Shown here: positions 15,593 through 25,396 of the stretch, piece after piece
How the letters are laid out: each line of letters starts with the position of its first letter
Position numbering within the stretch: position 1 is the first letter of the stretch
Virus record (IMG/VR): IMGVR_UViG_3300042691_006821
Location: 1-25,396 of that record
Origin: a virus
Strand: one strand, 5' to 3'
DNA: 25,396 nt
Translations under genes and position numbers: made by a program
Notes under the pieces: generated by a model
Seen by the model: the letters and a program-made list of their open reading frames with translations, nothing else
Databases searched by the model: none
Told to the model about the DNA's origin: nothing

Positions 15593-17092
15593 TCATCCCT
15601 CCTGTTTCATCATTTCGTCCACCATCTGGATCCTAGTGCCCAGCCACCGCATCACCGGCACCGCCATGGAGTTGCCCAGCGCCTTGTATCGAGGCCCGTC
15701 AGCGGCAGGCTTGCCGCGATACGGCACCGCCGTGTAGTCGTCAGGGAAGCCTTGCAGGCGCTCGCACTCGCGCGGCGTCAGGCGGCGGACGGCCATGGCG
15801 TGCATGACAGACGGAACGGCAGTGCTGCCGTTGTTCACGGCTTGCAGCGTTGGCGAGTATTCCTCTGTGACGAACGCACCGCCCGCCGCTTCGGACTGGC
15901 CGGATTTGAACGCAATGGCCGGCTGCATCACATAGTCGCCGCCCTGGTTGCCGCCGACCGGGTTGGTCATCAGCGGCTGGGCACCGTCTACCTCGCGGGC
16001 CTTGAAGTCTTTGCCGCTGTTCTGCGGCATGATGGAATAGGCCACCAGCGGCGCCGCATCACCCTTGCCGGTTTCACCCGACTGCGCCTTGAGCGGCGGG
16101 ACGATGGTGTCAGGCGCGCCGCGTCCGTTGCGGGCGTAGCGGGACTCGAAGGCCACAGCCGGCGGATGCGCGCCCGCCGCGAGCGGATGGCACGGGTCGC
16201 CCGGCTTCGGGTTGCTGTAGTTCGACGCGCTGGTGATCTGGGTGGTGTCAAAGGCGATGGCTGTCGGGTTTTTCGCGCCCATCGAGGGGGCCAGGTCGGC
16301 CGTCGTGGCGCATTGCGTTCCCGAGAGGTTTTGCGGGAAGGCAATCAGCCCTTCCATCGTATCAACGTCCGTGCCAGGCGGTCGGTGGCCTCCAGTACGG
16401 TTGCCGCCAGCCCGCAGCGTCGGGTGCAGGTCAGCCGCGATCAGGTGCCCGCTGGCCGCTCCATGCGCGCCGGGGTCATAGCCGCCTGTTCCAGCGCGAG
16501 CCTCAAGGGTTCCGGCAACTCTCTGCCCCGTGCTGCGGCGCGGCGCAGGATCCCCGCGCAGGCTTTCGCGCTCAAATAGAACCGCTGCGGCAGGTCGCCA
16601 GTCTCCAAGATATCCGACAACGAACACACGCTTGCGTCGTTGGGCCAGTCCGAAATACTGAGCGTCAAGAACTCGGTAGGCAAACCCATACCCGCACTCT
16701 GCCAGCGCCCCGAGGATGGAGCCAAAGTCCCGTCCTCCGTTTGACGACAGGACTCCGGGGACGTTCTCCCAAACCAGCCAGCGGGGCCGTGTTCGAAGAG
16801 CAAGCCGACAGAACTCGAGGGCCAGGTTGCCACGGTGGTCACCCAGTCCGCCGCGCAGGCCGGCGACGCTGAAACTCTGGCAGGGGGTTCCACCCACAAG
16901 AAGGTCGATTGCTCCAACGTCCGTCTCCTCAATGGTGGTGAAGTCGCCGAAGTTACGGACGGCGGGATAATGATGTGCCAGAACGGCAGACGGGAACTTG
17001 TCGATCTCGGCGAAGCCTGCGGCCCGCCAGCCGAGCGGATGCCATGCGACCGTCGCGGCCTCGATGCCGGAGCATACGGACAGGTAGCGCAT
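15593..17092 (-). CDS. C5 cytosine DNA methyltransferase with repeat-rich recognition region
   Basis: 499 residues from the ATG at 17092, which overlaps the upstream stop as TGATG; the frame is open further upstream, but that is the neighbour's shadow. All key C5-MTase motifs are visible: motif I (LSVCSGIEAATVAWHPLG, SAM binding), motif IV GGTPCQSFS with catalytic Cys71, motif VI ENV at Glu109, motif VIII QRRKR at 151-155, motif IX RRLTPRECERLQGFPDDY, motif X YKALGNSMAVPVM. The variable region between VIII and IX is unusually long (about 280 residues) and holds about five degenerate units, each starting (I/V)A(F/Y) and mostly carrying a P-L-x-A or S-P-T-L-x-A element. It methylates cytosine in a sequence that cannot be read from the protein. 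No restriction enzyme gene is nearby, so it likely protects phage DNA from host restriction. Confidence 0.93.
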   Translation of the reverse strand: MRYLSVCSGIEAATVAWHPLGWRAAGFAEIDKFPSAVLAHHYPAVRNFGDFTTIEETDVGAIDLLVGGTPCQSFSVAGLRGGLGDHRGNLALEFCRLALRTRPRWLVWENVPGVLSSNGGRDFGSILGALAECGYGFAYRVLDAQYFGLAQRRKRVFVVGYLGDWRPAAAVLFERESLRGDPAPRRSTGQRVAGTLEARAGTGGYDPGAHGAASGHLIAADLHPTLRAGGNRTGGHRPPGTDVDTMEGLIAFPQNLSGTQCATTADLAPSMGAKNPTAIAFDTTQITSASNYSNPKPGDPCHPLAAGAHPPAVAFESRYARNGRGAPDTIVPPLKAQSGETGKGDAAPLVAYSIMPQNSGKDFKAREVDGAQPLMTNPVGGNQGGDYVMQPAIAFKSGQSEAAGGAFVTEEYSPTLQAVNNGSTAVPSVMHAMAVRRLTPRECERLQGFPDDYTAVPYRGKPAADGPRYKALGNSMAVPVMRWLGTRIQMVDEMMKQEG

Positions 17093-17394
17093 CACCGCGC
17101 CCCCGTGGCACGACCGGCAGCAGATGCTGCGCCATGGCGCGACAAAGCCTCCTGAACGGATGGAGGGCAATACTGAATGCCGTACTGCTCCGACGCCCAC
17201 AGAACGAACGCTTCGGCGTGCTTGTCCGCATAGCCGGTAGCCTTGTCGATCATCGCCTCAAATCTGGTGGCGGGCTTGTTGGGCCATGCAATGCCAGTGT
17301 CTGCCGTGAACTGCTTCTGGGCGTCAAGCTGCCTGTAAACCCACTCGATGTAGCCGCGCCAAGCTGGGTAGCCAAAGTCTGCGTCGGTTACCAT
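17092..17394 (-). CDS. 100-aa hypothetical protein next to the methyltransferase
   Basis: ATG at 17394 has GGAGGT 6 nt upstream; the in-frame GTG at 17400 would leave no spacing, so the ATG is chosen. The product (DADFGYPAWRGYIEWVYRQL, then TGIAWPNKPATRFEAMIDKA, YADKHAEAFVLWASEQYGIQ) is helical and rich in Trp/Tyr, and family unknown. The stop overlaps the methyltransferase start (TGATG). Its last codons contain one copy of a 37-bp repeat whose other copy lies upstream of its own start. It may be a small partner of the methyltransferase, but that is only suggested by coupling. Confidence 0.65.
   Translation of the reverse strand: MVTDADFGYPAWRGYIEWVYRQLDAQKQFTADTGIAWPNKPATRFEAMIDKATGYADKHAEAFVLWASEQYGIQYCPPSVQEALSRHGAASAAGRATGAR
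17106..17142 (-). repeat. 37-bp repeat, copy A (upstream of the methyltransferase)
   Basis: Conserved blocks are TGGCACG, nine variable bases, AGATGCTGC, one variable base, CCATGGCGCGA. Copy B at 17411-17447 has the same blocks and spacing. This copy ends 14 nt before the methyltransferase ATG and also encodes the C-terminus of the 100-aa protein. It overlaps the 12-bp palindrome GCGCCATGGCGC (17129-17140) and the inverted repeat CAGCA-GA-TGCTG. Confidence 0.7.
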
Positions 17395-23335: not shown

Positions 23336-23350
23336 TGGAATTTAATTCCA
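23336..23350. promoter_or_regulatory. Operator OL1 (perfect palindrome)
   Basis: TGGAATTTAATTCCA, identical to 24060-24074. Its left part coincides with the -10 of PL, so a bound repressor would block PL. Confidence 0.85.
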
Positions 23351-23375: not shown

Positions 23376-23390
23376 TGGAAAATAATTCCG
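23376..23390. promoter_or_regulatory. Operator OL2 (imperfect)
   Basis: TGGAAAATAATTCCG keeps the GGAA-N5-TTCC half-sites. Its centre is 40 bp from the OL1 centre, and it lies just upstream of the PL -35 and just after the repressor stop codon. Confidence 0.75.
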
Positions 23391-23397
23391 CGTTTTG

Positions 23398-24003
23398 TTA
23401 GATGGGGCGGCGCACTATGGCGACAGGAGCAACCCACGCGAGGCGCACGTCAACGATGTCCTCGAATGCGCGGTTGTAGCTTTCCAGCGTGTAGACGCCG
23501 GGTTTGGTGCCACTCTTTAGAACCTTCAGATAGCCTTCGCCGTCCTCGGTCATCACAACGCAGTCGTGGCCGATGCACCGTGCTATATCCAGCCCGCGCT
23601 GGCGGGAACAGAAAAGCATGTCGCCGTCACGGTAGACCGGGAGCATGGATCGCCCGCGCACCTGAATGGCGATAGGGTCGGTGGCGTCGAGGTCGAGCGA
23701 CACATAATCCAGGCCGGCGCCCTGGCCGTGGTCGTCAAACGGGATGAACTGCTCGCCGGCTGATACGCTACCGACAAGAGGATAGCCCGACAGCTCGGGG
23801 CCGATCCCTTCTTTAAGCCATATCCGCTGTATGCCCAATGCGTCCGCCAGCTTATCCAGAACGTCGCCGCGAGGCTGCTTAACCTTGCCCGCAAGATACT
23901 TGTAAACGGATTCCTTCGGCAAGCCCGCCGCACGCGCCAACTCGGCGCCGCCCAGCGGACTGGCGTTGAATTTGGAGATCAGCCTTTTAGCCCACGCTTC
24001 CAT
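23398..24003 (-). CDS. CI/LexA-type self-cleaving phage repressor
   Basis: 201 residues from ATG 24003; upstream in-frame codons run through the operators and are rejected. The N-terminal HTH (~8-60) includes LGGAELARAAGLPKESVYKY and LDKLADALGI. The C-terminal S24 peptidase domain has the cleavage site Ala82-Gly83 (VGSVSAGEQF), nucleophile Ser119 (VRGRSMLPVYRDGD) and general base Lys160 (GYLKVLKSG). So RecA-stimulated self-cleavage, and SOS induction, are expected. No Shine-Dalgarno is visible before the ATG, so the message may be leaderless, as for lambda cI. It is flanked on both sides by operator pairs, as in a lambda-like immunity region, and represses PL and PR. Confidence 0.93.
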   Translation of the reverse strand: MEAWAKRLISKFNASPLGGAELARAAGLPKESVYKYLAGKVKQPRGDVLDKLADALGIQRIWLKEGIGPELSGYPLVGSVSAGEQFIPFDDHGQGAGLDYVSLDLDATDPIAIQVRGRSMLPVYRDGDMLFCSRQRGLDIARCIGHDCVVMTEDGEGYLKVLKSGTKPGVYTLESYNRAFEDIVDVRLAWVAPVAIVRRPI

Positions 24004-24018
24004 TATCGGAGCATGGCG

Positions 24019-24033
24019 CGGAACAAAATTCCG
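24019..24033. promoter_or_regulatory. Operator OR2 (imperfect)
   Basis: CGGAACAAAATTCCG, with a wider CGCG...CGCG frame from 24017 to 24035. It lies directly upstream of the repressor ATG and is centred 41 bp from OR1, mirroring the OL spacing. It should control repressor autoregulation (PRM), whose -10/-35 I could not place with confidence. Confidence 0.75.
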
Positions 24034-24051
24034 CGTTAGGGAATACGAGGC

Positions 24052-24080
24052 TTGCATCGTGGAATTTAATTCCATAGGAT
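24052..24080 (+). promoter_or_regulatory. Promoter PR (early-right)
   Basis: -35 TTGCAT (24052-24057), 17-bp spacer, -10 TAGGAT (24075-24080). The spacer contains OR1 almost exactly. The expected start is ~24087, which is the A of the cro ATG, so the cro message would be leaderless. Confidence 0.65.
24060..24074. promoter_or_regulatory. Operator OR1 (perfect palindrome)
   Basis: TGGAATTTAATTCCA, identical to OL1 and placed between the -35 and -10 of PR. Confidence 0.85.
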
Positions 24081-24086
24081 GCCTAC

Positions 24087-24296
24087 ATGGCAACGATCAC
24101 AGAAATAATCAATACCTGCGGTGGCCCGAAGGCTGTTGCAGATGCGCTTGGCCTCAAGGACGGCGTCCGCAAGTGGGCGCAGATCGGCATCCCGGATCGG
24201 CACTGGGCAAAGCTCATTGACATGTCCAAAGGGAAGCTGAAGCCCGCGACGATCTTCGCCGCGAACCAGCAGGCACGCAGTTCGGAGGCCGCATGA
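24087..24296 (+). CDS. Cro-like HTH regulator
   Basis: 69 residues: ITEIINTCGGPKAVADALGL (first HTH helices), KDGVRKWAQIGIPDRHW (recognition helix), AKLIDMSKGKLKP. 'I....GG..AVA.ALG....aV..W...GIP..hW' is the YdaS/Cro-type HTH seen opposite phage repressors. It starts at the expected PR transcription start, with no Shine-Dalgarno. It is the divergent partner of the repressor and would bind the same operators. The stop overlaps the HNH gene (ATGA). Confidence 0.85.
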   Translation: MATITEIINTCGGPKAVADALGLKDGVRKWAQIGIPDRHWAKLIDMSKGKLKPATIFAANQQARSSEAA

Positions 24297-24745
24297 CTGT
24301 GTGCTTGCTGCTTCGCAGTGGAGGCCACTGCATGATCGACGCTGACGATTACGAGTCCGTCGTTGCCGCCGGTATTTGGACTGCCTATAGGCCGAACCGG
24401 AAATACGGCAGCCTCTACGTTTATTCGACGAACCGGAATATCGGCGCGTTGCATCGCTTCCTGATGCAGCCGTCGTCCGGTCTGGTGGTGGACCACATCA
24501 ACGGCGATACGCTGGATAACCGGCGTGAGAACCTGAGGATTTGCACCCACGTAGAGAATTTGCGGAAGGCAAAAGTCAGCGTTCGCAACCGCACAGGTGT
24601 AAAGGGCGTTTCGCATCATCGCGGCGGGTACTACGCCAAGTTGTCGAACACGTATCTCGGCTATTTCCCGACGATTGAGCAAGCGGCAGCAGCCAGGCGC
24701 GAAGCTGAGGAAGCCCGTTGGCTGACCAATCGGGTCGCCGCATGA
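24293..24745 (+). CDS. HNH endonuclease with AP2-like DNA-binding domain
   Basis: 150 residues. An N-terminal strand region (DADDYESVVAAGIWTAYRPN) leads to the HNH core: LHRFLM (His54), VVDHINGDTLDNRRENLRIC with Asp67-His68, Asn76 and Asn80, and then HVENLRKAK. A C-terminal AP2-like part follows (RTGVKGVSHHRGGYYAKLSN, YLGYFPTIEQAAAARREAEE). Phage HNH-AP2 proteins are usually homing endonucleases. It starts in an ATGA overlap with cro, with GGAGG a few bases upstream. It may be a selfish insertion rather than an essential early gene, but it has not disrupted cro. Confidence 0.88.
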   Translation: MTVCLLLRSGGHCMIDADDYESVVAAGIWTAYRPNRKYGSLYVYSTNRNIGALHRFLMQPSSGLVVDHINGDTLDNRRENLRICTHVENLRKAKVSVRNRTGVKGVSHHRGGYYAKLSNTYLGYFPTIEQAAAARREAEEARWLTNRVAA

Positions 24746-24845
24746 CCTTTTATTCATCGAAATCCCCGCAAGACGCACCCCACCATGCTGACAACTTTGC
24801 GCGCCCGTCGAGCGCGGCGCAAATGGGCAGAAGTGGTAAGCCGTT

Positions 24846-24934
24846 TGGGGCAACGAAATCAGGAACCCCGCGCTGGGCATGTGAGAAACAGCTACGGCGG
24901 CGCGGCAACCTTGAGGCTTCGGCCTCCTTTTCTT
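24846..24934 (+). ncRNA. Structured RNA motif, copy 1, ending in a terminator
   Basis: Order: TGGGGCAAC, CAGGAACC, an 8-bp basal stem (CCGCGCTG 24868-24875 with CGGCGCGG 24898-24905), an apical 3-bp hairpin (TGT/ACA) with loop GAGAA, then TACGG before the 3' strand and CAACC after it, then a UUCG terminator. Copy 2 at 25155-25250 keeps the same order and unpaired bases, while the stems change by paired substitutions. Likely an RNA element of the early-right transcript. Confidence 0.65.
24913..24934 (+). terminator. Intrinsic terminator T1
   Basis: GAGGC-TTCG-GCCTC stem-loop followed by CTTTTCTT. Plus-strand orientation, about 170 nt after the HNH gene. Confidence 0.8.
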
Positions 24935-24936
24935 CG

Positions 24937-24977
24937 CATCCGCACAGCACGGATGACGCTGGTGTCATCGCGCCAGC
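24937..24977 (+). other. Two further hairpins between T1 and T2
   Basis: CATCCG (24937-24942) pairs with CGGATG (24950-24955), and GCTGG (24958-24962) pairs with CCAGC (24973-24977). They continue the chain of RNA structure. Confidence 0.5.
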
Positions 24978-24981
24978 ACTT

Positions 24982-25005
24982 CCCCGGCACGCCGGGGCTT
25001 TTCTT
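24982..25005 (+). terminator. Intrinsic terminator T2
   Basis: CCCCGG-CACG-CCGGGG stem-loop followed by CTTTTCTT. Plus-strand orientation. Confidence 0.82.
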
Positions 25006-25032
25006 CGAATGGCTGTGACCCCCTCCAGCCTA

Positions 25033-25080
25033 GTCCCAACTGCCACTTGTCCGGGCCCCCTCCCTGGCGGTCGTTGGGAC
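25033..25080 (+). other. Long hairpin H6
   Basis: GTCCCAAC (25033-25040) pairs perfectly with GTTGGGAC (25073-25080). The adjacent TGCCA (25041-25045) pairs with TGGCG (25065-25069), extending the helix. Confidence 0.6.
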
Positions 25081-25094
25081 GCCCCTTTCATCTC

Positions 25095-25120
25095 CGCTGG
25101 TTCCCTCCCTGTTGCCAGCG
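25095..25120 (+). other. Hairpin H7
   Basis: CGCTGG (25095-25100) pairs with CCAGCG (25115-25120), 14-nt loop. It resembles the GCTGG/CCAGC hairpin at 24958-24977. Confidence 0.5.
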
Positions 25121-25126
25121 TCGAGC

Positions 25127-25160
25127 GCCCCAGCCGGTCCCACAGCCTCCCGGCTGGGGC
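25127..25160 (+). other. Hairpin H8, 11-bp perfect stem
   Basis: GCCCCAGCCGG (25127-25137) pairs with CCGGCTGGGGC (25150-25160), 12-nt loop. Its right arm contains the TGGGGC that begins motif copy 2, so the two structures may compete. Confidence 0.7.
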
Positions 25161-25250
25161 AACATTCAGGAACCCTGCACGGGATCAGATGAGGAATCGA
25201 TACGGCCGTGCAGCAACCTCGGCGGGGCTTCGGCCTCGCCTTTTTCTTTC
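25155..25250 (+). ncRNA. Structured RNA motif, copy 2, ending in a terminator
   Basis: Same order as copy 1: TGGGGCAAC, CAGGAACC, an 8-bp stem (CTGCACGG 25175-25182 with CCGTGCAG 25206-25213), an apical GAT/ATC stem with loop GAGGA, TACGG, CAACC, then a UUCG terminator. It lies just upstream of the DUF2312 gene and could gate its expression. Confidence 0.65.
25221..25250 (+). terminator. Intrinsic terminator T3
   Basis: GGCGGGGC-TTCG-GCCTCGCC stem-loop (one G-U pair) followed by TTTTTCTTTC. It ends 17 nt before the next ATG, so expression of that gene needs readthrough or a promoter I could not see. Confidence 0.85.
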
Positions 25251-25266
25251 AGCATAGGAGCGCGCG

Positions 25267-25396
25267 ATGGACGCCATGAGCCATGACCCGGAGACGGGCG
25301 AAGTCCTGACAAGCCCGGTGGCGACCATCAACATCGCGGGCGCCGCCGGCCAGTTGAAATCCATCGTGCAGCGCATCGAGCGCGTGGCCGAGGAGA
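25267..25396 (+). CDS. DUF2312/GapR-like DNA-binding protein, N-terminus (partial)
   Basis: ATG at 25267 with an AGGAG Shine-Dalgarno 6 nt upstream. The 43 visible residues contain ETGEVLTSPVATINIAGAAG and then GQLKSIVQRIERVAEE, which fits the start of the DUF2312 coiled-coil domain (typically 'QLr..iERIErLEeEK'). The founding member, GapR, is an alphaproteobacterial protein that binds overtwisted AT-rich DNA during replication. A phage copy next to the replication side of the genome would fit. Only the N-terminus is seen. Confidence 0.6.
   Translation, partial: MDAMSHDPETGEVLTSPVATINIAGAAGQLKSIVQRIERVAEE

Follow-up and report, generated by a model that had tools for sequence, protein, structure and literature searches.

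A duplicated structured RNA beside predicted terminators in the early-right leader of a temperate, lambda-like phage

Results

The early-right region of the phage

The window, the whole stretch of DNA that was analysed, is a linear IMG/VR viral fragment of 25,396 bases. It carries genes for a Phage_capsid_3 capsid protein, a YqaJ exonuclease, an ERF annealing protein, an integrase, an S24-type CI repressor and a Cro-like protein, and represents a temperate, lambda-like phage. The relatives of the capsid, repressor, exonuclease and Cro proteins are all distant and many belong to phages of Alphaproteobacteria; the host is likely to be alphaproteobacterial. The phage also encodes a C-5 cytosine DNA methylase, at 15593-17200.

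Putative operators, recognized as palindromes, flank the cI gene on both sides and mark the pL and pR regions. The palindrome at pR is repeated at 23336-23350 (pL), and variants of it lie at 23376-23390 and 24020-24037. The features of the region are:

23398-24093, minus strand: CI-like repressor with an S24 peptidase domain; the true start is probably downstream of 24093
24060-24074, plus strand: operator-like palindrome TGGAATTTAATTCCA at pR
24087-24296, plus strand: Cro-like regulator, first rightward gene (PF14549 sub-threshold, phrog_8008)
24293-24745, plus strand: HNH_3 endonuclease
24746-25266, plus strand: early-right leader, untranslated and hairpin-dense (fold z -1.95)
24846-24911, plus strand: copy 1 of the structured RNA, pentaloop GAGAA
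24913-24926, plus strand: predicted terminator T1, adjoining copy 1, 5-bp UUCG hairpin and CTTTTCTT
24982-24997, plus strand: predicted terminator T2, between the copies, 6-bp all-GC hairpin and CTTTTCTT
25033-25080, plus strand: hairpin H1, arms GTCCCAAC and GTTGGGAC, C-rich interior
25095-25120, plus strand: hairpin H2, arms CGCTGG and CCAGCG, loop TTCCCTCCCTGTTG
25128-25159, plus strand: hairpin H3, arms CCCCAGCCGG and CCGGCTGGGG
25155-25219, plus strand: copy 2 of the structured RNA, pentaloop GAGGA
25221-25240, plus strand: predicted terminator T3, adjoining copy 2, 8-bp UUCG hairpin and TTTTTCTTT
25267-25396, plus strand: likely GapR/UPF0335-like gene, 5′ end, partial at the window end (best PDB matches, GapR chains)

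The leader lies after the pR-type operators and cro. From the HNH stop (24745) it runs through copy 1, T1, two hairpins, T2, H1 to H3, copy 2 and T3, which ends shortly before the start of the GapR-like gene. The identity of that early gene is likely, and is drawn from the first 43 residues of a cut gene, for which the best match had an E value of 0.25 only. An earlier note on this DNA had placed both copies between cro/HNH and the next gene, each running into a UUCG terminator, and both points are borne out: the copies sit in the untranslated leader, with T1 directly 3′ of copy 1 and T3 directly 3′ of copy 2. Between 23300 and 25396 there are six terminator-like sites against 2.1 expected, the first three listed being T1, T2 and T3. 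No promoter-like sites were found near the copies. The 3′ arm of H3 includes the conserved TGGGG of copy 2.

Anatomy of the two copies

Comparison of the real window with itself gave 69 pairs of 30-mers reaching 23/30 identity at offsets of 60-600 nt, against none in one shuffle. The two diverged copies occupy the positions described earlier and start 309 nt apart. As had been noted, they share unpaired blocks in the same order: TGGGGCAAC, CAGGAACC, the loop GAGRA, TACGG and CAACC. Each copy forms one two-tier hairpin, with a basal and an apical stem, flanked by these conserved unpaired blocks. The basal stem pairs 24868-24875 with 24898-24905 in copy 1 and 25175-25182 with 25206-25213 in copy 2, and the apical stem pairs 24877-24882 with 24888-24892 (with a bulged A) and 25185-25190 with 25196-25200, respectively.

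Covariation between the copies

The two copies are a genuine structured RNA conserved by selection. In a hand alignment of the 13 pairs, six differ between the copies, each on both sides, and all remain canonical, with no broken pair. Three of these changes fall in the 8-bp basal stem (CG>TA, GC>AT and TG>GC), exactly as first reported. Compensatory change in the apical stem was also confirmed, but the original count of two rises to three once the gap is correctly placed (GC>TA, TA>GC and GC>AT). Substitutions occupy 12 of the 26 paired columns compared with 2 of the 38 unpaired ones. A MAFFT alignment gave five double changes in 12 pairs; controls in which the partner strand was slid gave none, with 21-50% of cells paired versus 100% in the real register.

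In simulation, 12 substitutions placed at random kept every one of the 13 pairs canonical with a probability of only 2.05e-5, a null that takes no account of mutational bias or of post hoc structure choice, although the effect is large. Shuffling of the 3′ letters was weak by itself (17/500), as expected for two sequences, and thermodynamic folding of the isolated copies (z -1.78 and -2.95) gave only moderate support to the hairpin.

Indels of 2 nt and 1 nt between the copies break any common reading frame, and a peptide likeness seen in one frame (MRN-YG-AAT) stops within the element at these indels, leading us to reject protein coding. The out-of-frame indels and the compensation of every stem change uphold the claim that selection acts on RNA structure and not on protein. 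Because the fixed unpaired bases are carried on a drifting but still paired scaffold, the pattern is that of a protein-, polymerase- or ligand-binding RNA.

Searches for relatives of the element

The comparison with Rfam bore out the view that the element belongs to no described family: there was no match to Rfam 15 at the gathering threshold, and none near threshold with E values of up to 10. The only likeness, far below threshold, was to the small RNAs (sRNAs) SorX, SorY and ar14, with scores of 14.9-17.4 against gathering thresholds of 46-111. A reading as a self-cleaving HDV-like ribozyme, suggested by GGGGCAAC and a hairpin, was discarded, as there was no Rfam ribozyme match up to E 10 and the remaining helices would not fit into the stretch ahead of copy 2.

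The covariance model R1 scored the two copies at 93.8 and 92.1 bits, whereas nothing else in the window exceeded 9.9. Across approximately 1,570 Pseudomonadota genomes (samples of 385, 397, 391 and 398 genomes, from the class, two orders and the phylum) the best score was 25.3 bits and no homolog was found; related viral loci gave nothing convincing. The covariance search advised in the earlier note yielded no further homologs in the sampled genomes or related viral loci, an outcome that the note had listed as counting against its reading. As a sensitivity control, model R2, made from copy 1 alone, recovered copy 2 with a score of 60.5 bits (E 3e-12), so homologs diverged to the same degree would have been detectable in the sequence searched. 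Since none was found, the evidence consists of two paralogous copies in one genome, and the element is an orphan structured RNA.

Eight covariance matches at 21-25 bits were judged to be chance, as their number was at or below expectation and their structures were broken or truncated; one of them lies inside a coding gene. In a related phage (L238), a 15-bit match is antisense to the operon, and the match in another (L239) fails to align with it. Pattern scans of IMG/VR and GTDB contigs gave chance matches only, by inspection. Two near-identical contigs do not include the leader, and no comparable leader was found at Cro-related loci or in an HNH relative. A short hairpin, GGGCAACCGCAGGAACCCG...TACGGG, is conserved among five Bradyrhizobium genomes and partly resembles the 5′ motif; this was rejected as a homolog because the hairpin around TACGG is a different one and is not matched by the model.

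Discussion

To our knowledge, few RNA elements act directly on terminator read-through, and the standard example is HK022 put. In lambdoid phages terminators stand ahead of the early genes, whose transcription requires polymerase that can resist them, a resistance that HK022 put confers as RNA alone: put is approximately 70 nt long, occurs in two related copies and acts on RNA polymerase without phage proteins (PMC9378689). Each put site consists of two long stem-loops, and there is one such site after PL and another after PR (PMC9378689). By analogy, put is the closest functional counterpart of the element described here, which is likewise a structured RNA of approximately 65-70 nt, present in two similar copies in a lambdoid early leader upstream of terminators. 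On this anatomy, put-like antitermination is plausible. However, each copy has a single basal-plus-apical hairpin in place of two stem-loops, and both copies, the only two in the window, lie on the right arm. A scan of HK022 positions 24000-34000 with R1 for similarity to putL and putR reached only 5.5 bits, with no match. Because fold, arm distribution and sequence all differ, the element is not a member of the put family.

Lambda nut is, by the same kind of comparison, a weaker analogue. It shares the early-leader position and a U-A-closed pentaloop of GNRNA type, but boxB has no counterpart to the element's long conserved unpaired flanks.

We tentatively favour a reading in which the copies are paralogous, cis-acting RNA elements of the pR leader that control read-through of T1-T3 by RNA polymerase, although we would put its probability at somewhat less than even. 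T1-T3 separate cro/HNH from the downstream early genes, and the elements would set how far host RNA polymerase reads through them. If the leader is transcribed, as we infer, each element would fold while leaving the polymerase, its conserved unpaired bases would make contact with the elongation complex, or else with a Nus factor or a phage factor, and this contact would let polymerase pass T1-T3. An RNA that binds protein or polymerase fits because there are six compensatory pairs while the unpaired bases are nearly invariant. In the left operon, the R1 window scan found no copy of the element, and there are no strong terminators on that strand; as element and terminator array are both confined to the right arm, control of terminator read-through is favoured. 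No N-like protein was recognized among the left-operon proteins, where small uncharacterized ORFs matched no N family. Several observations weigh against read-through control: no homolog was found outside this phage, a copy set directly against its terminator would suit an attenuator or an sRNA just as well, and model folding of native copy 1 from 24746 still forms T1 (0.95). The one-arm, two-tier arrangement also speaks against a mechanism of the put type. The more ambitious proposal is that the element represents a separate class of RNA for processive antitermination, related to put in neither sequence nor fold; it would modify alphaproteobacterial RNA polymerase, and its tandem use would carry the enzyme past a series of terminators. 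We judge this unlikely. The initial interpretation is thus supported in part: it stands as regards selection on RNA structure, leader position, terminators and the lack of a known family, and the functions it offered stay candidates. Support is strong for the structure but not for the mechanism or the phylogenetic breadth.

The layout of conserved unpaired bases with a terminator directly downstream is also that of riboswitches and attenuators, and the copies could be tandem attenuators, each an aptamer-like sensor for a protein or a metabolite, with the folding of the adjoining terminator depending on its state. In model folding, a copy 1 transcript starting at TGGGGC adopts an alternative fold that removes T1 (probability 0.001). 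When upstream sequence was added, however, the probability of T1 returned to 0.95-0.96, and the antiterminator pairing is not retained in copy 2, whose terminator T3 keeps a probability of 0.98-0.999; mutually exclusive pairing is thus predicted for the isolated copy 1 but not for copy 2. No Rfam riboswitch matches. A second potential switch lies in H2, where GGTTCC-N6-GTTGCC (25099-25116) is the exact complement of GGAACC and GGCAAC, the two conserved unpaired blocks of copy 2 (25158-25174). Such a complement was seen in 16 of 20,000 shuffles, for a match found post hoc, but the pairing is predicted at 4% or less, with H2 itself predicted to win, and by inspection copy 1 has no such partner. 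The motif may be a masking switch for copy 2, absent from copy 1, and for want of a partner in copy 1 it is left out of the proposed mechanism. Overall, attenuation seems rather unlikely.

Slightly more doubtful is the proposition that the leader gives rise to one or two phage sRNAs, by processing or by initiation within it, with each copy and its terminator as their 3′ module. At their 3′ ends sRNAs usually carry a hairpin and a terminator, H1-H3 (25020-25160) are very stable (z -3.66) with CCUCC in or near their loops, and the alphaproteobacterial sRNAs SorX, SorY and ar14 share the order of hairpin and UUCG terminator, as well as C-rich loops like those upstream of copy 2. Against this stand the distance of their Rfam scores from threshold, the want of a promoter-like site and the marginal CCUCC enrichment (4 versus 1.5 expected; 230/5000 shuffles). 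A nut-like site, at which an arginine-rich phage protein of N type binds the apical hairpin and renders polymerase terminator-resistant, is improbable. The lambdoid boxB loop is GNR(N)A, which the U-A-closed pentaloops GAGAA and GAGGA fit, but the plus strand of 24746-25266 contains no match to the boxA sequence CGCTCTTTA within two mismatches, no N-like gene was recognized, and the window scan gave no left-arm copy. Least probable is a duplication of no regulatory role, kept merely as terminator-adjacent hairpins: its occurrence in one genome only would agree, but neutral drift does not give stems that diverge by paired changes around fixed unpaired bases.

A duplicated, strongly conserved and unclassified RNA placed before terminators, in what is apparently an alphaproteobacterial phage, is a candidate for a second kind of read-through RNA or, alternatively, for a phage-borne attenuator. 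The element is compact and testable, as comparison of the two copies already defines the bases to mutate.

The hairpins at 25020-25160 form a distinctive tract of their own, with loops rich in C (46% C, 9% A), CCUCC motifs resembling anti-Shine-Dalgarno sequences and a weak Rfam similarity to ar14.
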